The notes under the pieces were generated by a model. It saw nothing but the letters and a program-made list of their open reading frames with translations, was not told the origin of the DNA and ran no database searches. Positions 2,659 to 14,738 of a stretch of 64,000 bases of DNA are shown in pieces. The stretch's first letter is position 1; each line of letters opens with the position of its first letter. Origin of the DNA: Phenylobacterium sp. (lineage in GTDB: Bacteria > Pseudomonadota > Alphaproteobacteria > Caulobacterales > Caulobacteraceae); NCBI RefSeq assembly GCF_013822795.1, contig NZ_PNLB01000005.1:141432-205431 (forward strand). The letters are read 5' to 3'. The position numbers and the translations under genes are program-made.

Positions 2659-4311
2659 ATGTCGAACGAACGCGTGATCATCCTGGGCGCGGGCCCGGTC
2701 GGGCTGGGCGCCGCGCTGGAGCTGGCGCGCTTCGGCGTGCGCAGCGTGGTGATCGAGAAGCACGCCGGCACGTCGTTCCATCCGAAGACCCGCAACTTCA
2801 ACACCCGCACCATGGAGATCGCCCGCGGCTGGGGCCGCGGCGTCTATGAGCGGCTGCGCAGCATCGACACGCCGGACGGCTGGAAGAGCCCGATCCGCTT
2901 CCTGGCCTCGGCGGTCGGCGAGGAGTTCGGCAAGATCGAGTCGAAGGGCTTCGAGGGGCCGGGACCGCAGGTCAGCCCGGCGCTGCCGGTGATGTCGTCG
3001 CAGGAGCTGATCGAGGAGATCATGCTGGACGCGGCGCGGGCCAGCGGCCTGGTCGAGGTGCGCTTCCGCACGGAGGCGACGCGGCTGGTGCGCGGAGGCG
3101 GCGAGGGCGACCAGGACGCCGCACTCGAAGTGCGCGACCTGGCGAGCGGCGCGGTCGAGGTGCTGAGCGGCCCGGCGCTGGTGGCCGCCGATGGGGCCGG
3201 CAGTCTGATCCGTGACGAATTGGGCCTGGCGCTGGAGGGCGTGCAGGCGCTGTCGCACCTGGTGAACTGCTACTTCCGGGCCGACATCGAGCCGCACCTG
3301 AACGGTCGCCACGGGGTGCTGCTGTTCGTTTCGAACGCGCAGGCGCGCGGCGTGCTGCAGCCGCTGGACGCGGCGGGCCGGTGGCTGTGCCAGATCAATG
3401 TCGAGGAAAAGGACTGGACGCCGGAGGTGTTCACCGCCGAGCGGGCGCGGGCCTGGGTGCAGGCGGCGGCCGGCGTCGCGGACCTGGACGTCGAGGTGCT
3501 GTCGATCGGGTTCTGGAAGCTGAACGCGACGGTGGTCGAGCGGCTGGTCCAGGGCCGGGTGGTGATGTGCGGCGACGCCGCGCACCAGTTCCCGCCGACC
3601 GGCGGGCTGGGGGTCAACACCGGTCTGCAGGGCATGCACAACGCCATGTGGAAGCTGGCCGCCTTCGTGAACGGCCAGGCCGGCTGGGGCCTGGTCGAGA
3701 CCTATGACGGCGAGCGGCGGTCGGTCGCTCAGCAGATCACCGGCCAGTCGCTGGAGAACTCCAAGAACGTCGGCCGCATCCAGGCTGCGGCGGTGTCGGG
3801 GGGCGAAAGCGGCCTGAGCGCTGAGGACGTGGTGACCACGTCGCGGCGCTACGGCAACCACCTGGGGGTCGAGTTCGGGGCGTTCTACCGCTCCCCGGCG
3901 GTGGTGTCGGACGGGGCGGAGCCGCCGCCGGTCGCCGATCCGTACTCGGATTATGTGCAGACCGCCGCGCCGGGCTGCCGCGCGCCGCACGTCTGGCTGG
4001 GGCAGGCGCAGGCGAAGCTGTCGACCCTGGACCTGCTGGGGCCGGGCTTCACCCTGCTGGCCGCGCCGCAGGGTGAAGCTTGGCGCGGGCAGGCGCTGGC
4101 GGCTGGTGACGCGCTGGGCGTGCAGGTCGACGCCTACCGGATCGGCGCGGCGGGGCTGGCCGACCTCGGCGGGTTCGCGCAGGCCTACGGGATCGGCGAG
4201 GCCGGCGCCGTGCTGGTCCGGCCCGACGGCCACGTGGCCTGGCGCGCGCAGAGCGCACCGGACGACGGCCAGACGTTGGCCGGCGTCCTGACGCAAATTC
4301 TGGCGCGCTAG
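2659..4311 (+). CDS. FAD-dependent aromatic-type monooxygenase
   Basis: A 550-residue flavoprotein of the UbiH/PheA/MhpA hydroxylase group. It shows the Rossmann dinucleotide motif GAGPVGLGAALELARFG at about residues 9-25, and the second FAD motif with GDAAHQFPPTGGLGVNTG at about residue 304, where the GD pair contacts FAD ribityl. A C-terminal thioredoxin-like domain (from about residue 430) is typical of the phenol-hydroxylase subgroup. The start is ATG 2659 because GGGAGGG ends 8 bases before it; an upstream TTG at 2635 has no such support. The expected reaction is NAD(P)H- and O2-dependent hydroxylation of an aromatic or polyketide-like substrate. Its 3' end overlaps the convergent citrate synthase gene by 4 bp. 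Confidence 0.9.
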   Translation: MSNERVIILGAGPVGLGAALELARFGVRSVVIEKHAGTSFHPKTRNFNTRTMEIARGWGRGVYERLRSIDTPDGWKSPIRFLASAVGEEFGKIESKGFEGPGPQVSPALPVMSSQELIEEIMLDAARASGLVEVRFRTEATRLVRGGGEGDQDAALEVRDLASGAVEVLSGPALVAADGAGSLIRDELGLALEGVQALSHLVNCYFRADIEPHLNGRHGVLLFVSNAQARGVLQPLDAAGRWLCQINVEEKDWTPEVFTAERARAWVQAAAGVADLDVEVLSIGFWKLNATVVERLVQGRVVMCGDAAHQFPPTGGLGVNTGLQGMHNAMWKLAAFVNGQAGWGLVETYDGERRSVAQQITGQSLENSKNVGRIQAAAVSGGESGLSAEDVVTTSRRYGNHLGVEFGAFYRSPAVVSDGAEPPPVADPYSDYVQTAAPGCRAPHVWLGQAQAKLSTLDLLGPGFTLLAAPQGEAWRGQALAAGDALGVQVDAYRIGAAGLADLGGFAQAYGIGEAGAVLVRPDGHVAWRAQSAPDDGQTLAGVLTQILAR

Positions 4312-5393
4312 GCCGCCTTCAGCGGGGCCGGGCCGACATAGACCGACTGTGGGCGGATCAGGCGGCCGCCGGCCACCTGTTCGCGGGCGTGGGCGATCCA
4401 GCCGGCGACGCGGCCCATGGCGAAGACGCAGGTGAAGGCGTTGGGCGGGAAGTCGAGGGCCTCGAGCAGCAGGGCGGTGTAGAACTCGACATTGGTGTCC
4501 AGCGGCCGGTTCGGCTTGTGCTCCTTGAGGATCGCCAGGGCCGCGGCCTCGACGGCTTCGGCGAAGGCGATGCGGCCGGGGCGGGCGTTGGAGCCGTCGT
4601 CGAGCCGGCGGACGGCGGCCTTCAGGGCGTCGGCTCGCGGATCGCGCACGCGGTAGACGCGGTGGCCAAAGCCCATCAACCGGTCGCCGCGGGCCAGGGC
4701 CTGTTCGATCCAGGCGCGGGCGTTCTGCGGCTCGCCGATCTCATCCAGCATCTCGATCACCGGACCGGGCGCGCCGCCGTGCAGCGGGCCCTTCAGGGCG
4801 CTGATCCCGCCGAGCACGGCCGAGGTCAGGCCGGCGCGGGTCGAGGCGATCACCCGGGCGGCGAAGGTCGAGGCGTTGAGGCCGTGGTCGCTGACCGTGA
4901 CCAGATAGGTGTCGAGGGCGTCGGACTGGGCCTTAGCCGGGACCTGGCCGGAGATCATCCGCAGGGCGTCGGCGGCGTGGCCGAGCGACGGATCGGGAGC
5001 GACTGGGGCCTGGCCCTGATGGGCGCGGACCACGGCGGCGGTGAACACGGCGGGCGCTGCGATCAGGCGCAGGGCGGTCGCCAGGTCGTCGCCGTCGGCC
5101 AGCCGCGCGGTCAGGGCGCGCATCGCCTCGACCGGGGTGAGGTCGAGCAGGCCCGGATCGAGGGCGGCGACCTCGGAAAACACCTCGGCGCGGGCCGCGC
5201 CCAAGGCCGGGGCGAGGTCGGCCGGCAGATCGTCGAAGAACCCGTCGAACAGGGTGCGGACCAGGTCCTCGAAGCGGGTGGCCCCGGCCAGTTCGTCGAG
5301 GGAGTGGCCGCGGATGATCAGCACGCCGCGCTGGCCGTCGACTTCCGACATCACGGTGTTGGCGGCGACGACGTCTTCAAGACCGTCGGACAT
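4308..5393 (-). CDS. Citrate synthase/methylcitrate synthase family protein
   Basis: A 361-residue citrate-synthase-fold enzyme, expected to condense oxaloacetate with acetyl- or propionyl-CoA. Active-site landmarks are visible: His170 (SDHGLNAS), His205 (GPLHGG), His244 (GFGHRVY) and the citrate-binding Arg in DPR at 251-253. The position of the catalytic Asp (NVD in most enzymes) is NVE here, so Glu303 replaces it. The start is ATG 5393 because GAGGAG precedes it by 8 bases; the frame is open further upstream without such support. It is transcribed divergently from an HTH-citrate synthase fusion with which it shares an AT-rich control region, and it is unlikely to be the main TCA gltA. The substrate is not certain. 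Confidence 0.87.
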   Translation of the reverse strand: MSDGLEDVVAANTVMSEVDGQRGVLIIRGHSLDELAGATRFEDLVRTLFDGFFDDLPADLAPALGAARAEVFSEVAALDPGLLDLTPVEAMRALTARLADGDDLATALRLIAAPAVFTAAVVRAHQGQAPVAPDPSLGHAADALRMISGQVPAKAQSDALDTYLVTVSDHGLNASTFAARVIASTRAGLTSAVLGGISALKGPLHGGAPGPVIEMLDEIGEPQNARAWIEQALARGDRLMGFGHRVYRVRDPRADALKAAVRRLDDGSNARPGRIAFAEAVEAAALAILKEHKPNRPLDTNVEFYTALLLEALDFPPNAFTCVFAMGRVAGWIAHAREQVAGGRLIRPQSVYVGPAPLKAA

Positions 5394-5418
5394 GGAAAGA
5401 ACTCCTCTTGCTTGCCGC

Positions 5419-5447
5419 GATATTTGCCCGCAAGCTGGAGTCGTCAA
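5419..5447 (-). promoter_or_regulatory. Promoter for the minus-strand citrate synthase gene
   Basis: On the minus strand, TTGACG (5447-5442) and AATATC (5424-5419) are separated by exactly 17 bp. Transcription would start near 5412 and give a short leader containing the GAGGAG ribosome-binding site. The -35 box overlaps the inverted-repeat operator. Confidence 0.55.
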
Positions 5448-5466
5448 TCTTGATCAATATAATCAA
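5443..5466. promoter_or_regulatory. Shared AT-rich operator between the two citrate synthase genes
   Basis: This AT-rich patch in a GC-rich region contains interleaved TTGA/TCAA half-sites: TCAA-tc-TTGA, then TTGAT-7 bp-ATCAA at 5450-5466. It overlaps the -35 box of the minus-strand gene and the -10 box of the plus-strand gene. The HTH domain of the plus-strand gene product is the obvious candidate ligand, by inference from position. Confidence 0.5.
5458..5463 (+). promoter_or_regulatory. -10 box TATAAT immediately before the HTH-citrate synthase start
   Basis: A perfect TATAAT ends 6 bases before the ATG at 5470. Transcription would begin at or next to the start codon, giving a leaderless mRNA. 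This agrees with the absence of any Shine-Dalgarno. No good -35 box is visible, which suggests activator dependence or regulation at this site. Confidence 0.45.
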
Positions 5467-5469
5467 CAT

Positions 5470-6645
5470 ATGAGCGCATCGTCCCCCGCCAGACCGCCCG
5501 AATGGATCGTCGCCGACGAGGCGCGCGCCCGGCTGGGGGTGCGGCCGCAGACGCTGTACGCCTATGTCAGCCGCGGGCGGGTGCAGGTGCGGCCCGACCC
5601 GCACGATCCGCGCCGCAGCCTCTATCGGGTCGCCGACATCGCCGCCCTGACCGACCGCAAGGGCCGCAGCCGCAAGGTCGCCGAGGTGGCGGCGGGCGCG
5701 ATCTCGTGGGGCGAGCCGGTGCTGACCTCGGCGATCACCACGATCTCCGGCGGGCGGCTGTTCTATCGCGGACGCGACGCCGCCGAGCTGGCGCAGACCG
5801 AGACGCTGGAGTCGGTGGCGCGGCTGCTGCGCGGCGGCCACGGCGCGGCGCTGAAGCGGACGGACCGGCCGCCGCCGCCGGCCGGCGAGGACATGCGCTC
5901 GCGCGCGTTCCTGGCGCTGGCGGCGCGGGCCGGCCAGGACCTGCCGGCCCGCGGGCGCAATCCGCTGGCGCTGGCGGTCGAGGCCGCGACCTTGCTCGAC
6001 GTGTTGACCGACGCCGTCGCCGGCCAGTTGGGCGGCGGGGCGATCGCCGGGCGGCTGGCGCTGGCCTGGGGCCAGGGACCGGGCGGGCCGGGCGCGGACC
6101 TGATCCGCCGCGCGCTGGTGCTGTTGGCCGATCACGAGCTGAACGCCTCGACCTTTGCCGCCCGGGTGGCGGCCTCGACCGGCGCCTCGCTGGCGGCCTG
6201 CGCGCTGGCCGGGATGGCGGCGCTGTCGGGACCGCGGCACGGCGGGGCGGCGGCGGCGGTGCAGAGCCTGGCGCGCGAGGCCGGCGAGATCGGCGCGCGG
6301 GCGGCGGTGAGCGCGCGGCTGGCCGAGGACCGGCACATCCCCGGCTTCGGGCACAATCTCTACCCCGACGGCGACCCGAGGGCCGCGGCGCTGCTGGAGC
6401 GGTTCGAGCCCGACCCCGAGATGGCCAAGCTGCAGGCGACGATCAGCGCGATGACCGGCCTGGCGCCCAACGTCGACTTCGCGCTGGTGGCGATGTCGCG
6501 GGCGCTGAAGCTGCCGACCGACGCGCCGTTCGCGCTGTTCGCCGTCGCCCGCTGCGCCGGCTGGATCGCCCATGCCATCGAACAAGGCCAGGGCGGCGGC
6601 GTTATCCGCCCGCGGGCCCGCTATGTCGGGGTGGAGGCGGGCTGA
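5470..6645 (+). CDS. Citrate synthase-like protein with N-terminal HTH (MerR-like) domain
   Basis: A 391-residue fusion. Residues about 11-62 form a MerR/excisionase-type helix-turn-helix (ADEARARLGVRPQTLYAYVS, then a wing with YRVADI). Residues about 75-391 form a citrate synthase domain. The catalytic set is complete: His222 (DHELNAS), His257 (GPRHGG), His295 (GFGHNLY), Arg304 (DPR), Asp336 (PNVDF) and the C-terminal IRPRARYVG arginines. The start is the ATG at 5470; the frame is open much further upstream but runs over the divergent gene and its promoter. The protein may be an enzyme, a metabolite-sensing regulator or both. The name is certain at fold level; the function is not established here. 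Confidence 0.85.
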   Translation: MSASSPARPPEWIVADEARARLGVRPQTLYAYVSRGRVQVRPDPHDPRRSLYRVADIAALTDRKGRSRKVAEVAAGAISWGEPVLTSAITTISGGRLFYRGRDAAELAQTETLESVARLLRGGHGAALKRTDRPPPPAGEDMRSRAFLALAARAGQDLPARGRNPLALAVEAATLLDVLTDAVAGQLGGGAIAGRLALAWGQGPGGPGADLIRRALVLLADHELNASTFAARVAASTGASLAACALAGMAALSGPRHGGAAAAVQSLAREAGEIGARAAVSARLAEDRHIPGFGHNLYPDGDPRAAALLERFEPDPEMAKLQATISAMTGLAPNVDFALVAMSRALKLPTDAPFALFAVARCAGWIAHAIEQGQGGGVIRPRARYVGVEAG

Positions 6646-7988: not shown

Positions 7989-8190
7989 CCCTCTCCCCCA
8001 AGGGGGCGAGGGGACGAGATGTACGGTCCGCCCGGTTTGTTCCTCCCCTCCAGCGGTCCCGCTGACCTGTTCCCTCTCCCCTCGGGGAGAGGGTTAGGCG
8101 CTTGCACCGTCACGAACTCGATGCGAACGTATGGGGAACATGAATATCCCCTCGCCCCCTTGGGGGAGAGGGTTAGGGTGAGGGGGCGCC
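7972..8190. repeat. Three copies of a CCCTCTCCCC-type palindromic repeat
   Basis: Copies lie at about 7972-8016, 8071-8100 and 8148-8190. Each is an inverted repeat of the form CCCTCACCCTA-CCCTCTCCCC...GGGGAGAGGG-TAGGGTGAGGG or its half. The first contains the stop of the upstream membrane-protein gene and the last ends one base before the DUF559 start codon. The 203-bp gap between the two genes holds little besides these copies. Confidence 0.85.
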
Positions 8191-8191
8191 G

Positions 8192-8644
8192 ATGCCGCGC
8201 AACGCCTCGACGGCGAAAGCACGATCGCTACGTGCCACCCAAACCAATGCCGAGGGCTACCTCTGGGCGTCGTTGCGCAATCGCCAGCTCGGCGGTTGGA
8301 AGTGGCGGCGTCAGGTCGGCGTCGGCCCCTTCATCGTCGATTTTCTTTGCATTGAGGCCGGGCTGGTGATCGAGCTCGACGGCGGCGGCCATGCCGAGCG
8401 GCTTGAGCAGGACGCGCTGCGAACGGCCATGCTCGGAGCGCACGGCCTGCGCGTCATCCGCTTCTGGAACCACGGTGTATTCGAGAGCCGCGAAGGCGTC
8501 TGCGATGCGATCCTCGCCGCGTGCGGCGGGGAGCGCTCCCCTCACCCTACCCTCTCCCCAGAGGGGAGAGGGAAAAGACCGAGCCGCCTTCACGACACGT
8601 CCCTCTCCCGGCGGGGAGAGGGTAGGGTGAGGAGGCGGCGCTAA
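8192..8644 (+). CDS. DUF559 (Vsr-like endonuclease fold) protein
   Basis: A 150-residue protein. Residues about 20-112 match the DUF559 pattern: AEGYLWASLRNRQLGGWKWRRQ, then FIVDFLCIEAGLVIELDGG.H, and LGAHGLRVIRFWNHGVFES. This resembles the PD-(D/E)xK/very-short-patch-repair fold, with the FIVDF Asp and the VIELDG Glu/Asp as probable metal ligands. From about residue 115 the protein is translated repeat sequence (PHPTLSPEGRGK and LSRRGEGR), so the tail is probably not a functional domain. The ATG lies just after a repeat copy and the stop overlaps the gltB stop by 4 bp. The biological role of DUF559 is not established. Confidence 0.8.
   Translation: MPRNASTAKARSLRATQTNAEGYLWASLRNRQLGGWKWRRQVGVGPFIVDFLCIEAGLVIELDGGGHAERLEQDALRTAMLGAHGLRVIRFWNHGVFESREGVCDAILAACGGERSPHPTLSPEGRGKRPSRLHDTSLSRRGEGRVRRRR
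8536..8638. repeat. Two more copies of the CCCTCTCCCC palindrome inside the DUF559 3' end
   Basis: Copies at about 8536-8576 and 8600-8638 share the GGGGAGAGGG core with the upstream cluster. They encode the last 35 or so residues of the DUF559 protein and sit between it and the convergent gltB gene. Confidence 0.85.
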
Positions 8645-11600
8645 GCCCGGTGATGCACCGCCTCTTCCTCGGCCAGCGGCTTGTCGAGGCGGTGGACCAT
8701 TTCCTTGGGCACGACCTGCCAGAACTTGCCCAGATGGCGGTCCCAGTCGCGCAGGATCGTGTCGGCCAGGACCGAGCCGGTTTCGCGGGCGTGCTCCTCG
8801 ACCAGGGCCTTGAGCTCGGCTTCCCAATGACGCGTCCCGATCCGTTCGACCAGGACGCTGTCGCGGTTGAGCATGGTCAGGAAGCGGTCGTCGAGGTCGA
8901 GCACATAGGCCATGCCGCCGGTCATGCCGGCCGCGAAGTTGAAGCCGACCGGGCCCAGCACCACGGCGACGCCGCCGGTCATGTACTCCAGGCCGTTAGT
9001 CCCGCAGCCCTCGACGACGGTGACGGCGCCGGAGTTGCGGACCCCGAAGCGCTCGCCGGCCAGGCCGGCGGCGAACAGGCGGCCGCTGGTGGCGCCGTAG
9101 AGCACGGTGTTGCCGATGATGGCGTTGGTCTCGGCGGCCGTCAGCTGCGGCGCGGGGCGGATGACCAGGGTCGCGCCGGACAGGCCCTTGCCGACATAGT
9201 CGTTGGCCTCGCCGGTGAGTTCGACCCGCAGGCCCTGGACGGCGAAGGCGCCGAGGCTCTGGCCGGCCGAGCCCTTGAGCTGGACGGTCAGGTGGCCGGG
9301 CGGCAGGCCTTCCATGCCGAACTTGCGGACGATGTGCGAGGAGGTGCGCGAGCCGATCGCCCGGGCGGTGTTCCGCACGGTGTAGGTCAGCTGCATCTTC
9401 TCGCCGCGCTCGAGCAGCGGGGCGGCGTCGCGGACGATCTGGGCGTCGAGGGTGTCGGGCACCTCGTTGCGGCCGAGGGTCGTGCAGAACGGCGCGTGCG
9501 GGCCGGGGTCGGCGCGGACCAGCAGCGGGTTGAGGTCGAGGTCGTCGAGGTGTTCGCCGCCGCGGGAGACCTGCTGCAGCAGGTCCGTGCGGCCGACGAT
9601 CTCGTTGAGGCTGCGGAAGCCGAGGCCGGCCAGGATCTCGCGCACCTCCTCGGCGATGAAGGTGAAGAGATTGATGACCTTCTCCGGGCTGCCGGAGAAC
9701 TTGTCGCGCAGGGCCTGGTCCTGGGTGCAGACCCCCACCGGGCAGGTGTTGGAATGGCACTGGCGGACCATGATGCAGCCCATGGCGATCAGGCTGGCCG
9801 TGCCGATGCCGAACTCCTCGGCGCCGAGCATGGCGGCGATGACCACGTCGCGGCCGGTGCGCATGCCGCCGTCTGCCCGCAGCCGCACGGAGTGGCGCAG
9901 GTTGTTCAGGGTCAGGACCTGGTTGGCCTCGGACAGGCCCATCTCCCACGGACCACCGGCGTACTTGATCGAGGTCTGCGGCGAGGCGCCGGTGCCGCCG
10001 ACATTGCCGGAGATCAGGATGACGTCCGCTTTCGCCTTGGCGACGCCGGCGGCGATGGCGCCGATGCCGGTCATGGCCACCAGCTTCACGCAGACCCGGG
10101 CTTCCGGGTTGATCTGCTTGAGGTCGTAGATGAGCTGAGCCAGGTCCTCGATCGAATAGATGTCGTGGTGCGGCGGCGGGCTGATCAGCATCACGCCGGG
10201 CGTCGAGTGGCGCAGCTTGGCGATCAGCTCGGTGACCTTGAAGCCGGGCAGCTGGCCGCCTTCGCCGGGCTTGGCGCCCTGGCTGACCTTGATCTCGATC
10301 TCGCGGCACTCGTTGAGGTACTGGGCGGTGACGCCGAAGCGGCCCGAGGCGATCTGCTTGACCGCCGAGTTCGGGTTGTCGCCGTTGGGCAGCGGCTTGT
10401 AGCGGGCCGGGTCCTCGCCGCCTTCGCCGGACACCGACTTCGCGCCGATCCGGTTCATGGCGATGTTGAGCACGCCGTGGGCCTCGGGGCTGAGCGCGCC
10501 CATGCTCATGCCAGGCGTCAGGAAGCGCTTGCGGATCTCGTTGACGCTCTCGACCTCGTCGAGGCTGACCGCGCGCTCGGGCGAGCGTAGGTCGAGCAGG
10601 TCGCGCAGCTGGATGGTCGGCATCCGCCGCATGCCCTCCGAGAAGGTCTTGTAGGCGGCGTAGTTGCCGGTGTCGCAGGCGCGCTGCAGGGCGTGGATCA
10701 TCCGCGCTTCGAAGGCGTGGGCCTCGCCGGCGCGGCGGGCCTTGTAGAAGCCGCCGACCGGCAGGGTGATGGCCGCGGCGTCCCAGGCCTTGCGATGCAG
10801 TTCCAGGGCCTTGGCCTCGATGCCGGCCAGGCCGATGCCGGAGATGCGCGAGGGCATGCCGGGGAAGAACTCGGCGACCAGGGCGCGCGACAGGCCGAGC
10901 GCCTCGAAGTTGTAGCCGCCGCGATAGGACGAGATCACCGCGATGCCCATCTTGGCGATGATCTTCAGCAGCCCGCCCTCGATGGCGTGCTTGTAGTTGA
11001 GGCAGAGGTCGCGCAGCGACAGCTCGCCGGTCAGGCCGCGGTCGAGCCGGTCCTGGAAGCTTTCCTGGGCCAGGTAGGCGTTGACCGCCGTCGCCCCGAC
11101 CCCGACCAGCACCGCGAAATAGTGGGTGTCGAGGCACTCGGCCGAGCGGACGATGATCGAGACGTAGGAGCGCAGGCCCTTGGCGACCAGCGAGGAGTGC
11201 ACCCCGCCGGTGGCCAGGATCATCGGGAGGGCGACGCGGTCAGGGCCCGTGGCCTCGTCGGAGAGCACGATGGTGGCGCAGCCGCGCAGGGCAGCGTCCT
11301 CGGCCTCGGCGCGAATGCGGTCGAGGTTGGCGCGCAGGGCGTCGCCGTCGCGGCTCTCGGGGGCCGGCAGCGGCATGGTGCAGTCGATCACCGCGACGTT
11401 CTTCTCGCCGATGAACTGGGCGATGCGCTGGTACATGCCGGTGGTCAGCACCGGGCTCTCCAGCACGAAGACGTCGGTCTGGGCCTCGTCCTGGGCCAGG
11501 ATGTTGCCGAGGTTCTTGAAGCGGGTCTTCAGGCTCATCACCGAGGTCTCGCGCAGCGAGTCGATCGGCGGGTTGGTCACCTGGCTGAAGTTCTGGCGGA

Positions 11601-13296
11601 AGAAGTGCGACAGCGGCCGGTACTGGTCGCTGAGCACGGCGAGCGGCGCGTCGTCGCCCATCGAGCCGACGGCTTCCTTGGCGTCCTCGACCATCGGCGC
11701 GAGGATCAGTTCGAGGTCCTCGAGGCTCATGCCGGCGGCGACCTGGCGGCGGATCAGCTCCTCGCGCGAATAGGCCCGCGGCTCGGGGCCGGGGGCGATC
11801 TCGTTCTCGAGGTCGACCATGTTGCCGAGCCACTGGTCGTAGGGGTGGCGGACGGCGAGTTCGTCGATGATCTCGTCCTCGCCGTAGAGGCGGCCCTCGG
11901 CCAGGTCGACGGCGATCATCCGGCCGGCGGAGATGTGGGTCTTGCGGACGATCCGCGACTCTTCCACCCGGCACATGCCGGCCTCCGAACCCATGATCAG
12001 CAGGCCGTCGTCGGTATAGGCCACGCGCAGCGGGCGCAGGCCGTTGCGGTCCTTGCCGGCCACCACCCAGCGGCCGTCGCTGGCGCAGATCGCGGCCGGG
12101 CCGTCCCACGGCTCCATCACCGAGTTGCAGTAGGCGTAGAGCGCCTTATGGGCCGGCTTGATCTGTTCGTCCGAGCGGGCGTTCCAGGCCTCGGGCATCA
12201 GCAGGGCCTTGGCCATCGGCGCGTCGCGGCCGGCGCGGACCAGCACCTCGAAGGTGTTGTCGAGCGCCATGGAGTCCGAGCCGTGCGGGTCCTGGATGAC
12301 CGGCTTCACGTCGTCGCCCATCTCGCCGAAGGCGTCGGCCGCCATCCGGATCTCGTGCGACTTCATCCAGTTGACGTTGCCCTTCTTGGTGTTGATCTCG
12401 CCGTTGTGGGCGAGCATCCGGAACGGCTGGGCCAGGCGCCATTCGGGGAAGGTGTTGGTCGAGTAGCGCTGGTGGAAGATCGCCACCGCGGCGGCGAAGC
12501 GTTCGTCGCGCAGGTCGGGATAGAACTCGTCGATGTGCTGGGCGAGGAACATGCCCTTGTAGATCAGCTGCCGGGCCGAGAAAGAGCACAGGTAGAAGTG
12601 CTGGATGCCGGCGGCGGCGACCCGCTTTTCGATGCGCTTGCGGCACAGGAACAGGGCGCGCTCCAGCGCCTCGCCGGTCAGGCCGGCGGGCGGCGAGAGC
12701 ATGATCTGCTCGATCTCGGGGCGGGTGGCGTTGGCCTTCTCGCCGATCACCGAGGTGTCGACCGGCACCTGACGCCAGCCGTAGATGTAGAACCCGAAGC
12801 GCAGGGCCTCGGCCTCGACGATGGTCCGGGCCGCTTCCTGATTGCCAAGGTCATTGCGCGGCAGGAACACCTGGCCGACGGCGATGGGACCGGGGCGCAG
12901 GACGTGGCCGATGCGGGTCACCTGGTCGGCGAAGAAGTCCTGCGGCACGCTCAGCAACACGCCGGCGCCGTCGCCGGTCTTGCCGTCGGCGTCGACCGCG
13001 CCGCGGTGCCAGACGCTCTTCAGGGCGGTGATGGCCAACTCGACCACCTCGCGGCGCGGCTTGCCGTCGAGGGCGCAGACCAGCCCGACGCCGCAGGCGT
13101 CGCGCTCGTCGGCCGGGGCGTAGGCGTGGGCGGCGGTCAGGGCGGCGCGGTTGGCCGCATACCGATCCAGCTCACCGCTCACCCCGGCGAAAGCCGGGGC
13201 CCAAGCCGAGGTCTGGTTCAGCGTGGCGTGCGGGGCTTCGAGACCGCTTGGGTCCCGGCTTTCGCCAGGATGAGCGGGGAAGGGGTGGTCGCTCAT
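8641..13296 (-). CDS. gltB: Glutamate synthase (NADPH) large subunit
   Basis: A 1551-residue GOGAT alpha subunit that transfers the glutamine amide to 2-oxoglutarate. The class II amidotransferase nucleophile is the Cys of DACGVGLVC, at residue 68 from this start; it is normally exposed by removal of the propeptide. The FMN domain follows, and the 3Fe-4S ligands are seen in CIMVRQCHSNTCPVGVC at about residue 1172. The C-terminal GXGXG beta-helix domain comes last. The start is ATG 13296, preceded by GGAG at 8 bases; a GTG at 13305 overlapping the gltD stop is the alternative. The propeptide contains a translated repeat (HPGESRDP...WAPAFAG). It forms an operon with gltD upstream. Confidence 0.97.
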   Translation of the reverse strand: MSDHPFPAHPGESRDPSGLEAPHATLNQTSAWAPAFAGVSGELDRYAANRAALTAAHAYAPADERDACGVGLVCALDGKPRREVVELAITALKSVWHRGAVDADGKTGDGAGVLLSVPQDFFADQVTRIGHVLRPGPIAVGQVFLPRNDLGNQEAARTIVEAEALRFGFYIYGWRQVPVDTSVIGEKANATRPEIEQIMLSPPAGLTGEALERALFLCRKRIEKRVAAAGIQHFYLCSFSARQLIYKGMFLAQHIDEFYPDLRDERFAAAVAIFHQRYSTNTFPEWRLAQPFRMLAHNGEINTKKGNVNWMKSHEIRMAADAFGEMGDDVKPVIQDPHGSDSMALDNTFEVLVRAGRDAPMAKALLMPEAWNARSDEQIKPAHKALYAYCNSVMEPWDGPAAICASDGRWVVAGKDRNGLRPLRVAYTDDGLLIMGSEAGMCRVEESRIVRKTHISAGRMIAVDLAEGRLYGEDEIIDELAVRHPYDQWLGNMVDLENEIAPGPEPRAYSREELIRRQVAAGMSLEDLELILAPMVEDAKEAVGSMGDDAPLAVLSDQYRPLSHFFRQNFSQVTNPPIDSLRETSVMSLKTRFKNLGNILAQDEAQTDVFVLESPVLTTGMYQRIAQFIGEKNVAVIDCTMPLPAPESRDGDALRANLDRIRAEAEDAALRGCATIVLSDEATGPDRVALPMILATGGVHSSLVAKGLRSYVSIIVRSAECLDTHYFAVLVGVGATAVNAYLAQESFQDRLDRGLTGELSLRDLCLNYKHAIEGGLLKIIAKMGIAVISSYRGGYNFEALGLSRALVAEFFPGMPSRISGIGLAGIEAKALELHRKAWDAAAITLPVGGFYKARRAGEAHAFEARMIHALQRACDTGNYAAYKTFSEGMRRMPTIQLRDLLDLRSPERAVSLDEVESVNEIRKRFLTPGMSMGALSPEAHGVLNIAMNRIGAKSVSGEGGEDPARYKPLPNGDNPNSAVKQIASGRFGVTAQYLNECREIEIKVSQGAKPGEGGQLPGFKVTELIAKLRHSTPGVMLISPPPHHDIYSIEDLAQLIYDLKQINPEARVCVKLVAMTGIGAIAAGVAKAKADVILISGNVGGTGASPQTSIKYAGGPWEMGLSEANQVLTLNNLRHSVRLRADGGMRTGRDVVIAAMLGAEEFGIGTASLIAMGCIMVRQCHSNTCPVGVCTQDQALRDKFSGSPEKVINLFTFIAEEVREILAGLGFRSLNEIVGRTDLLQQVSRGGEHLDDLDLNPLLVRADPGPHAPFCTTLGRNEVPDTLDAQIVRDAAPLLERGEKMQLTYTVRNTARAIGSRTSSHIVRKFGMEGLPPGHLTVQLKGSAGQSLGAFAVQGLRVELTGEANDYVGKGLSGATLVIRPAPQLTAAETNAIIGNTVLYGATSGRLFAAGLAGERFGVRNSGAVTVVEGCGTNGLEYMTGGVAVVLGPVGFNFAAGMTGGMAYVLDLDDRFLTMLNRDSVLVERIGTRHWEAELKALVEEHARETGSVLADTILRDWDRHLGKFWQVVPKEMVHRLDKPLAEEEAVHHRA
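13175..13277. repeat. Palindromic repeat inserted in frame in the gltB 5' end
   Basis: Two inverted arms of about 31 bases (13175-13205 and 13247-13277) match with a few differences and carry the motif CCGGCGAAAGCCGGG/CCCGGCTTTCGCCAGG. The element is wholly inside gltB, between the start and the nucleophile Cys, and is translated as a peptide beginning HPGESRDP and ending WAPAFAGVSGE. Confidence 0.85.
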
Positions 13297-13301
13297 CTGA
13301 G

Positions 13302-14738
13302 TCACTCCGCGGCCAGCAGCGCGCGCTGCGAGAGGTATTGGTGGATGGCGTCGGCGGCGTCGCGGCCGTCGCGGATGGCCCAGACCACCAGCGAGGCGCC
13401 GCGGACGATGTCGCCAGCGGCGAAGACGCCGGGCAGGCTGGTCGCCTGGGTCTTGAAGTCGGCCTTCAGCGTTCCCCAGCGCGAGACCGCCAGGTCGGGG
13501 GCCGAGAACAGGTTCGGCAGGTCCTCGGGATCAAAGCCGAGCGCCTTGATCACCAGGCCGGCCGGCAGGTCGAAGTCGCCGCCCTCGACCTCTTCGGGGG
13601 CCTGGCGCCCGGTGGAGTCGGGCGGGCCGAGCCGCATGCGGGCGGCGCGCAGGCCGTCGGCGTGGCCGGCGTCGCCGAGCACGGCGCGCGGCGCGGCCAG
13701 CCATTCGAACACCACGCCTTCCTCCTCGGCGTGGGCGACCTCGCGGGCCGAGCCGGGCATGTTGGCGCGGTCGCGGCGATAGAGGCAGGTCACCGACTTC
13801 GCGCCCTGGCGCACCGCGGTGCGCACGCAGTCCATGGCGGTGTCGCCGCCGCCGACGACCACGACGTCGCGGCCGGCGGCGTTGAGCTCGCCGCTGTCGT
13901 AGGCCGGGACGCTGTCGCCGAGGCCGACGCGGTTGGAGGCGATCAGGTAGTCGAGCGCCGGGGCGACCCCGGCCGAGCCGGAGCCCGGGGCGATCAGCTC
14001 GCGGGCCGCATAGACACCGGTGGCGATGAGAATGGAGTCGTGGCGGGCGCGCAGCTCGTCCAGGCTGGCGTCGCGGCCGACCTCGAAGGCGAGCTGGAAG
14101 ACGACCCCGCCCTCGGCGAGGCGCTGGGTGCGGCGCTCGACGACCTCCTTTTCCAGCTTGAAGCCGGGGATGCCGTAGATCAGCAGGCCGCCGGCGCGGT
14201 CGTGGCGGTCATAGACCGTGACGTCATAGCCGGCTTCGCGCAGCCGCTCGGCGGCGGCGAGCCCCGCGGGGCCGGCGCCGATGATCCCGACCGACTGGCC
14301 GCGGGCGGGGCCGGCGCGCAAGGGTGCGACCCAGCCTTCCTCCCAGGCCTTATCGGTCAGGTAGCGTTCGACCGCCCCGATGGTGACGGTGCCGTGGCCC
14401 GACTGCTCGATGGTGCAGGAGCCTTCGCACAGGCGGTCCTGCGGGCAGATGCGGCCGCAGATCTCAGGCATCGAGTTGGTCGCCTGGCTGAGGGCGTAGG
14501 CTTCCTCCAGCCGGCCCTCGGCGGTCATCCGCAGCCAGTCGGGGATGTTGTTGTGCAGCGGGCAGTGGGTTTGACAGAACGGAATGCCGCATTGCGAGCA
14601 GCGGGAGGCCTGCTCGGCCGCCTTGGCGTCGATGAAGTCGGCGTAGATCTCGTGGAAATCGCCGGCGCGCGCCGCGGCTGCACGCTTGGCCGGCGTGGTC
14701 CGTTCGACGGTGGTGAACTTCAGCATGCGCTCGGCCAT
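13302..14738 (-). CDS. gltD: Glutamate synthase small subunit
   Basis: A 478-residue iron-sulfur flavoprotein that passes electrons from NADPH to GltB. The N-terminal cysteine clusters are complete (CSQCGIPFCQTHC at about residue 47 and CGRICPQDRLCEGSC at about 94). The FAD motif GIIGAGPAGLAAAERL begins at about 150, and the NADPH motif VVVVGGGDTAMDC at about 290. The ATG at 14738 is preceded by GTGGAGG. Its stop lies 6 bases upstream of the gltB ATG (overlapping the alternative gltB GTG), so translation of the two subunits is likely coupled. The promoter is in the AT-rich region before it. Confidence 0.97.
   Translation of the reverse strand: MAERMLKFTTVERTTPAKRAAAARAGDFHEIYADFIDAKAAEQASRCSQCGIPFCQTHCPLHNNIPDWLRMTAEGRLEEAYALSQATNSMPEICGRICPQDRLCEGSCTIEQSGHGTVTIGAVERYLTDKAWEEGWVAPLRAGPARGQSVGIIGAGPAGLAAAERLREAGYDVTVYDRHDRAGGLLIYGIPGFKLEKEVVERRTQRLAEGGVVFQLAFEVGRDASLDELRARHDSILIATGVYAARELIAPGSGSAGVAPALDYLIASNRVGLGDSVPAYDSGELNAAGRDVVVVGGGDTAMDCVRTAVRQGAKSVTCLYRRDRANMPGSAREVAHAEEEGVVFEWLAAPRAVLGDAGHADGLRAARMRLGPPDSTGRQAPEEVEGGDFDLPAGLVIKALGFDPEDLPNLFSAPDLAVSRWGTLKADFKTQATSLPGVFAAGDIVRGASLVVWAIRDGRDAADAIHQYLSQRALLAAE

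Follow-up and report, generated by a model that had tools for sequence, protein, structure and literature searches.

A conserved 23-bp site accompanies helix-turn-helix–citrate synthase fusions and suggests that they act as local transcription regulators

Why should a citrate synthase carry a DNA-binding domain? The question is raised by a gene in a 64,000-nucleotide stretch of Phenylobacterium sp. DNA (contig NZ_PNLB01000005.1, positions 141,432 to 205,431; hereafter the window), the product of which joins an N-terminal helix-turn-helix (HTH) to a citrate synthase domain. A sequence-only reading of the window had suggested that such a fusion (HTH-CS) could be a regulator that senses oxaloacetate or an acyl-coenzyme A (acyl-CoA) with an enzyme fold, or else a catalytic enzyme that controls its own partner, a second citrate synthase encoded divergently. 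Its outline of the locus was correct: the open reading frames (ORFs) place the pair at 4308-6645, with the fusion running on the plus strand from an ATG at 5470 to a stop ending at 6645, and the partner (5393-4308, minus strand) facing it across a 76-bp intergenic region (5394-5469). As to function, we consider it quite probable that the fusion acts locally and regulates itself, as a one-component transcription factor with citrate synthase as its sensor fold, because a fixed 23-base site lies upstream of the gene in many bacteria, whatever the neighbour.

This site, TCAATnTTGATn7ATCAA at 5444-5466, ends 3 bp before the ATG. The intergenic regions of related loci have in common one otherwise isolated block, GTCAATCTTGATCAATATAATCAA, in which some loci carry TCAAGATTGA instead of TCAATCTTGA, its own reverse complement, a swap that is expected of a symmetric half-site. 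A logo of 59 sites, non-redundant at 70% protein identity, reads R-TCAAT-M-TTGAT-n6-R-ATCAA-Y-R-T. Since the 59 were drawn from 152 sites that had no more than one mismatch, there is bias in the 14 fixed columns; columns outside this picking were also informative (R 1.1 bits, M 1.2 bits and the final T 1.4 bits), and the 30 columns to the left of the site had a mean of 0.18 bits. Across 189 deduplicated loci (rows dropped: own-genome copies L001-L004; motif loci L144, L145, L187 and L188; the fragment L104; and near-identical loci), the operator showed no mismatch in 143, one in 9 and two in 3. A chance origin of the motif was rejected, as sites with 0-2 mismatches never appeared in shuffled upstream sequences (20 single-base shuffles of each of the 189 loci). 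It is this phylogenetic footprint that points to an operator of the fusion's own gene, as expected of a one-component regulator.

The motif was also scanned across whole genomes independently of the gene, and the sites were then compared with the HTH-CS places given by a protein search. The family scan used TCAANNTTGATCAANNNNATCAA, the phylum and class scans used TCAATNTTGATN7ATCAA, and the reversed pattern served as a control. The family yielded 51 sites in 51 of 119 genomes, every one of them just upstream of an HTH-CS gene and on the same strand, with none for the control. Nineteen of the 25 sites in the class (24 of 289 genomes; control 0) and 40 of the 51 in the phylum (49 of 398 genomes) were likewise at HTH-CS genes, so that in the union of the three surveys 103 of 118 exact sites lay directly upstream of HTH-CS. 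As for the 15 non-adjacent sites, one (genome G265) sits before an HTH-CS gene truncated by the end of its contig, and another is the own genome's DUF2332 site, described below. A third (genome G696) lies in the promoter region flanked by a 2-hydroxyacid dehydrogenase gene and by an SDR-MFS pair, in the same cluster as an HTH-CS gene that is 2.9 kb from the site and has none of its own. The remaining 12 come from genomes that yielded no HTH-CS, and 11 of these sites fall within an ORF at least 100 codons long. The 23-bp site is new here.

The junction of an HTH with a citrate synthase domain was borne out by Pfam and AlphaFold2, which give a MerR/Xis-type winged helix at residues 12-65 followed by the citrate synthase fold at 71-391. 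In the window protein alone, Pfam HTH_17 matches residues 16-60 under its gathering score (E=0.0064); across 78 aligned N-terminal regions, the window protein included, HTH_17 matches 77 (best E=5.6e-12) and MerR_1 matches 56, counted at E up to 0.01. The AlphaFold2 model of the full fusion was made from 89 sequences (the window protein and 88 of 105 diverse rows, most catalytically degenerate members being omitted). It has a mean predicted local distance difference test score (pLDDT) of 92.4 and a predicted template modelling score (pTM) of 0.83, with pLDDT block means of 93-97 across residues 11-60; the HTH modelled alone reached 85.2. VIA matched the HTH model to Xis (4j2n, Z 7.6), SoxR-DNA (2zhg, 6.9), GlnR-DNA (4r4e, 6.9), BldC-DNA (6ama, 6.8) and CarH, and the middling values of the whole set (Z 6-8) fit with the profile result. 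Foldseek gave no match to the HTH model at E 0.001 or better, and a PDB sequence-profile search with the HTH alone gave three weak matches (BldC, 0.41; 7zbs, 0.43; SoxR, 0.62). The dimerising coiled-coil helix of MerR type was not found in the AlphaFold2 model, where helices 54-65 and 70-80 come after the HTH and the citrate synthase fold begins at about residue 71. Judged by these models and profiles, which agree on an HTH_17/MerR winged helix with a conserved recognition helix, the fusion has a MerR-superfamily DNA-binding domain without the full MerR family architecture.

The sequence-only reading had made its own proposal depend on conservation of the HTH, and this proved to be strong. In 186 homologues (the 189 minus three truncated proteins), ten residues (L22, T28, L29, Y30, A31, Y32, S34, R35, R48 and Y52) each reach at least 97% conservation, and Y30, R35 and Y52 are retained in all 186.

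The remainder of the protein is a citrate synthase by fold. Pfam Citrate_synt (PF00285) matches at E=3.3e-60, VIA aligns the fusion with M. tuberculosis CitA (8gi7) at Z 32.8 and 2.9 A across 319 residues, and Foldseek matches the domain model to 8s9d at E=3.2e-15. None of the NCBIfam citrate/methylcitrate synthase cut-offs was passed (best TIGR01800, 158 bits vs 421.3). The residues that the earlier reading had picked out as catalytic, H222, H257, H295, R304 and D336, are all there and correspond in the alignment to E. coli GltA H230, H265, H306, R315 and D363 (numbering that counts Met1); R361 and R380 are likewise present. We take these residues to have the roles of their counterparts in citrate synthase structures, so that the window protein would retain the catalytic His/His/Asp together with the oxaloacetate-binding His/Arg. 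The basic residues are another matter. Among 143 plain sequences, most of them orthologues of the partner, 95-99% have K or R at GltA positions 300, 307, 310, 312 and 320 (Y stands at 312 in GltA itself), vs 1-17% of 75 operator-bearing HTH-CS; positions 353 and 356 fall in gaps in 75/75 and 74/75 of the latter. The conserved basic residues at 300, 307, 310, 312, 320 and 350-356 are accordingly not a feature of HTH-CS. We assume that the basic positions in GltA 300-320 and 350-356 face CoA, as in citrate synthase structures, and the residues that were lost probably serve CoA.

Some members have gone further. Among the 186 homologues, H222 is retained in 174, H257 in 164, H295 in 166, D336 in 167, R304 in 186 and R380 in 178. 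One or more of seven tested active-site residues (H222, H257, H295, D336, R304, R361 and R382) is missing in 27, and 26 lack H257, H295 or D336, one of these (L096) being a frame-broken sequence. An operator within one mismatch is present in 147 of the 159 intact members and a linked partner in 127; the 26 members missing a catalytic residue have the operator in 3 and a linked partner in 3. A pseudo-enzyme branch thus retains HTH residues where catalytic ones are lost, although its members are related and Caulobacteraceae are over-represented, so that these counts do not stand for independent events. Unlinked own-family relatives (L189-L202) belong to a branch that has lost the catalytic His/Asp, and several of them retain only TCAATCTTGAT, two of the three half-sites. 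Some Phenylobacterium genomes contain a second HTH-CS paralogue (L089:2989-4158 and L208:1533-2693), 61-69% identical, with catalytic residues kept and N in place of G after the recognition helix; no operator was found within 300 bp upstream of it. This paralogue and one own-family branch are without the full site.

These findings bear on the possibility that the fusion is a bifunctional trigger enzyme: a citrate or acyl-CoA/2-oxoacid synthase that is active, binds the operator as well and so signals how much substrate is present, in the way that PutA responds to proline. Such an enzyme would account for the complete fold and for the presence of H222, H257, R304 and D336 in 75/75 and of H295 in 73/75 operator-bearing members (non-redundant at 80%). 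We nevertheless regard it as unlikely, given the loss of the conserved basic residues and the invariance of Y30, R35 and Y52 in a set that includes the 26 members without H257, H295 or D336. If CitC is the orthologue, a further argument comes from the Caulobacter crescentus genes citB and citC (CCNA_03757 and CCNA_03758), of which citB, but not citC, was reported to complement E. coli gltA (Berge et al. 2020, PMC7083601). The identities to GltA given there are 33% for CitC and 30% for CitB. Eight pairs from a genus of the family (g22) that we took as Caulobacter gave 31.5-33.9% for HTH-CS and 27.5-29.8% for the partner. As these figures match, the Caulobacter HTH-CS orthologue is very probably CitC and its partner CitB, and the neighbouring locus tags also fit with this being the same gene pair. 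In the accessible parts of PMC7083601, CitC is a putative citrate synthase inactive in E. coli, an operator or regulation by CitC is unmentioned, and the term 'helix-turn-helix' has no match in the main text. The CCNA_03757 promoter has served as a negative control for IscR (PMC11475020). The regulator half of the original proposal is strongly supported by comparative genomics, through the conserved operator and the conserved HTH, whereas its catalytic half was weakened by the lost basic residues and by the failure of CitC to complement.

If the fusion is a regulator, is the 23-bp element its site? The element might instead belong to another regulator or to a core promoter, the fusion's HTH having another role, and its overlap with a -10-like TATAAT would agree with this. 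The distribution of the element makes this very unlikely. In the genus, 60 sites were found in 49 of 60 genomes: 48 at HTH-CS, 12 at DUF2332 genes and none elsewhere, with none in the 6 genomes that have no HTH-CS, full or fragment, and none for the reversed control. DUF2332 is present in 28 of these genomes; 12 of the 24 that also have HTH-CS carry the DUF2332 site, and none of the 4 that lack HTH-CS has kept it. The 12 sites are in the opposite orientation, 52-62 bp from the first matched residue, and DUF2332 genes constitute a second target class for the motif. The own genome's only DUF2332 gene (PF10094, E=5.1e-100) has the genome's second exact site 32 bp upstream of its start (C22:12812-12834; L145:1501-1523), and may belong to the HTH-CS regulon. 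Gene and operator together span G000:C22:11737-12834 (L145:420-1523) and lie outside the window. In Roseomonas mucosa, Pseudoroseomonas cervicalis, L094 and L121, the gene divergent from HTH-CS is DUF2332 itself.

The element also tracks HTH-CS across at least six kinds of divergent neighbour. At loci having the operator with 0 or 1 mismatch, the gene divergent from HTH-CS encodes a family III CoA-transferase (L112, L115, L134, L165, L166 and Azospirillum sp. B510, with L169 and L170 by weaker matches), a methyltransferase (L133, L177), a 2-hydroxyacid dehydrogenase (L163, L164, Comamonadaceae OTU4NAUVB1), a GudP transporter (Paraburkholderia) or the PrpB methylisocitrate lyase (L173, L175, L176), beyond which lies a further citrate synthase, presumably PrpC. 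In these last three loci, HTH-CS occupies the position expected for the prp regulator. The HTH was reached in 14 of 40 plasmid rows listed, and all six of the 14 that were examined have a 0-mismatch site, next to DUF2332 (2), citrate synthase, CoA transferase, the GudP transporter and 2-hydroxyacid dehydrogenase. A site that stays constant while the neighbours vary is what one expects of a local regulator. In the named plasmid records L211 and L213, HTH-CS has tripartite tricarboxylate transporter genes nearby, a hint of a carboxylate ligand.

Linkage to a plain citrate synthase, the frequency of which the sequence-only reading had left to a survey, is common but not universal: it was seen at 28 of 48 HTH-CS loci examined in the phylum (54 found, 6 having no locus) and 21 of 30 in the class (31 found, 1 having no locus). 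These counts score as unlinked both L119, whose contig begins at the gene, and L142, where a citrate synthase 32% identical to the window partner faces the gene from about 200 bp away. A tree of citrate synthase domains (quick method; 40 HTH-CS and 23 plain, the latter including GltA, the own CitA and the presumed PrpC, with the long-branched L182 omitted) placed HTH-CS and plain domains on two sides of one branch, with a Shimodaira-Hasegawa-like approximate likelihood ratio test (SH-aLRT) value of 100. A recent fusion of an HTH onto the partner is unsupported. Four plain-labelled rows (L080, L186, L200 and L213) had fallen inside the HTH-CS group in a first tree, whose careful search was unfinished; they were judged to be mislabelled HTH-CS and were omitted as plain rows from the later tree. 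That fusion and partner form one hetero-oligomeric citrate synthase with a leftover HTH is scarcely credible, since, although linkage is frequent and both proteins match the citrate synthase family, a linked partner is missing, at the threshold applied, from 20/48 and 9/30 of the loci examined, the HTH residues are among the protein's most conserved, HTH-CS is separate from the sampled plain citrate synthases in the tree, and CitB was sufficient alone in E. coli (PMC7083601).

How might a regulator of this kind work? We envisage that a dimeric (or larger) citrate synthase domain would place the N-terminal winged helices on the TTGAT/ATCAA half-sites. Because the operator coincides in part with the start region of its own gene and with the presumed -35 of the partner (Table 1), bound protein would most likely repress both. 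The start codon is 6 nt 3' of the TATAAT, which predicts a leaderless or nearly leaderless HTH-CS mRNA. The proposed sensor pocket keeps the oxaloacetate/citrate residues, minus the basic residues that probably serve CoA. For this reason we propose that domain closure and DNA binding respond to a dicarboxylate or tricarboxylate, such as oxaloacetate, citrate or a related compound, and not to acetyl-CoA turnover. The citrate synthase dimer closes on oxaloacetate, and this would offer a direct way to shift two HTHs on the TTGAT-n7-ATCAA inverted repeat.

Table 1. Coordinates in the window of the gene pair, the fusion's domains and the predicted control elements
Feature	Position	Strand	Basis
HTH-citrate synthase (HTH-CS) gene, 391 amino acids, proposed regulator	5470-6645	+	ORF, Pfam, AlphaFold2
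MerR/Xis/BldC-like winged helix-turn-helix, residues 12-65; recognition helix 26-34	5503-5664	+	AlphaFold2, HTH_17, VIA
Citrate synthase fold, residues 71-391, proposed sensor domain	5680-6642	+	VIA, Foldseek
Predicted operator TCAATCTTGATCAATATAATCAA; half-sites TCAAT (5444-5448), TTGAT (5450-5454), ATCAA (5462-5466)	5444-5466	+	
TATAAT, possible -10 of HTH-CS gene, inside operator	5458-5463	+	sequence; inference
TTGACG, possible -35 of partner citrate synthase, overlapping operator edge	5442-5447	-	sequence; inference
Plain citrate synthase, 361 amino acids, divergent partner, CitB-like	4308-5393	-	NF009005, 2c6x match

Several observations weigh against the interpretation of HTH-CS as a self-regulating transcription factor. 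The site has 3 or more mismatches at 33 of the 189 loci, mostly unlinked own-family members, while one locus has no upstream sequence, and the exact site is absent from 66 of 169 HTH-CS places. Conversely, 11 of 51 sites in the phylum, where the reversed control gave 3, and 6 of 25 in the class lie away from HTH-CS. Half of the genus genomes having both genes (12/24) are without the exact DUF2332 site. The promoter scan gave no sigma-70-type pair at its threshold and picked up neither TATAAT nor TTGACG. All seven tested active-site residues are kept by 159 of 186 homologues, which also fits an active enzyme, and, in the alignment, two of the lost positions are also non-basic in Salmonella PrpC, itself an active enzyme. 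Finally, CitC was identified through percent identity in genomes taken as Caulobacter and not by locus tag.

Regulators built from enzymes have precedents. The MocR/GabR regulators combine a winged helix with an enzyme-derived effector domain and are often divergent from their target; there, an aminotransferase fold is joined to a GntR-type helix, whereas HTH-CS joins a citrate synthase fold to a MerR/Xis-type helix. The MerR family, BldC and phage Xis match the HTH by profile and model, and HTH-CS differs from them in that its model lacks the MerR coiled coil and its sensor is a citrate synthase. PutA likewise has an N-terminal DNA-binding domain on a metabolic enzyme and is under autogenous control (PMC5293562), but with a ribbon-helix-helix fold, on another enzyme, and as a proven enzyme and repressor. 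In Streptomyces coelicolor, SCO5831 and SCO5832 (citA3/citA4) are two putative citrate synthase genes that, like the HTH-CS pair, share an intergenic region; MtrA bound this region in an electrophoretic mobility shift assay (PMC12323332). They belong to another phylum. We believe SCO5832 to have an HTH. A 2012 comparative-genomics paper on malonate and propionate regulators reportedly predicted new factors and may name the HTH-CS family. No description of an HTH-citrate synthase regulator was found in the open-licence literature, among the matches listed, and none is given in the accessible parts of PMC7083601, PMC12323332, PMC9739823, PMC11475020 and PMC12542777.

Taking the family as a whole, we lean towards the view that HTH-CS proteins are widespread and ancient transcription factors of the Pseudomonadota, possibly beyond, each a carboxylate sensor that kept the oxaloacetate site and gave up the CoA site. 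Through a nearly invariant operator, they would control themselves, the divergent gene of acid or acyl-CoA metabolism, often one of the enzyme class to which they bear a likeness (citrate synthase, or prpB-prpC of the methylcitrate operon), and, in trans, DUF2332. If this is true, the annotation of HTH-CS as citrate synthase would be wrong, as would metabolic models that count these proteins; indeed, six named records call HTH-CS 'citrate synthase family protein' or 'citrate synthase', in line with the sequence-only reading. It would also account for the failure of CitC to substitute for citrate synthase, and would suggest an alternative regulator for propionate (prp) loci and a first functional link for DUF2332. 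Relatives of Caulobacter, in which citrate synthase already has a link to control of the cell cycle, would have a genetic read-out of oxaloacetate/citrate status.

Three citrate synthase genes are present in the 4.4-Mb genome (46 contigs), the divergent pair and one elsewhere, whose product shares 66% identity with E. coli GltA. Against NCBIfam NF009005 the partner reaches 459 bits, over the cut-off of 332, and its best PDB sequence match is B. subtilis citrate synthase 2c6x (E=1.1e-69). The best named relatives of HTH-CS come from Phenylobacterium. Near the pair, ORFs at 8641-14738 on the minus strand resemble the large and small subunits of glutamate synthase (gltB, gltD), named by eye from their translation, and at 8010-8830 a short DUF559-like ORF, also called by eye, lies between copies of a CCCTCTCCCCTT-type repeat that may be a dispersed one.

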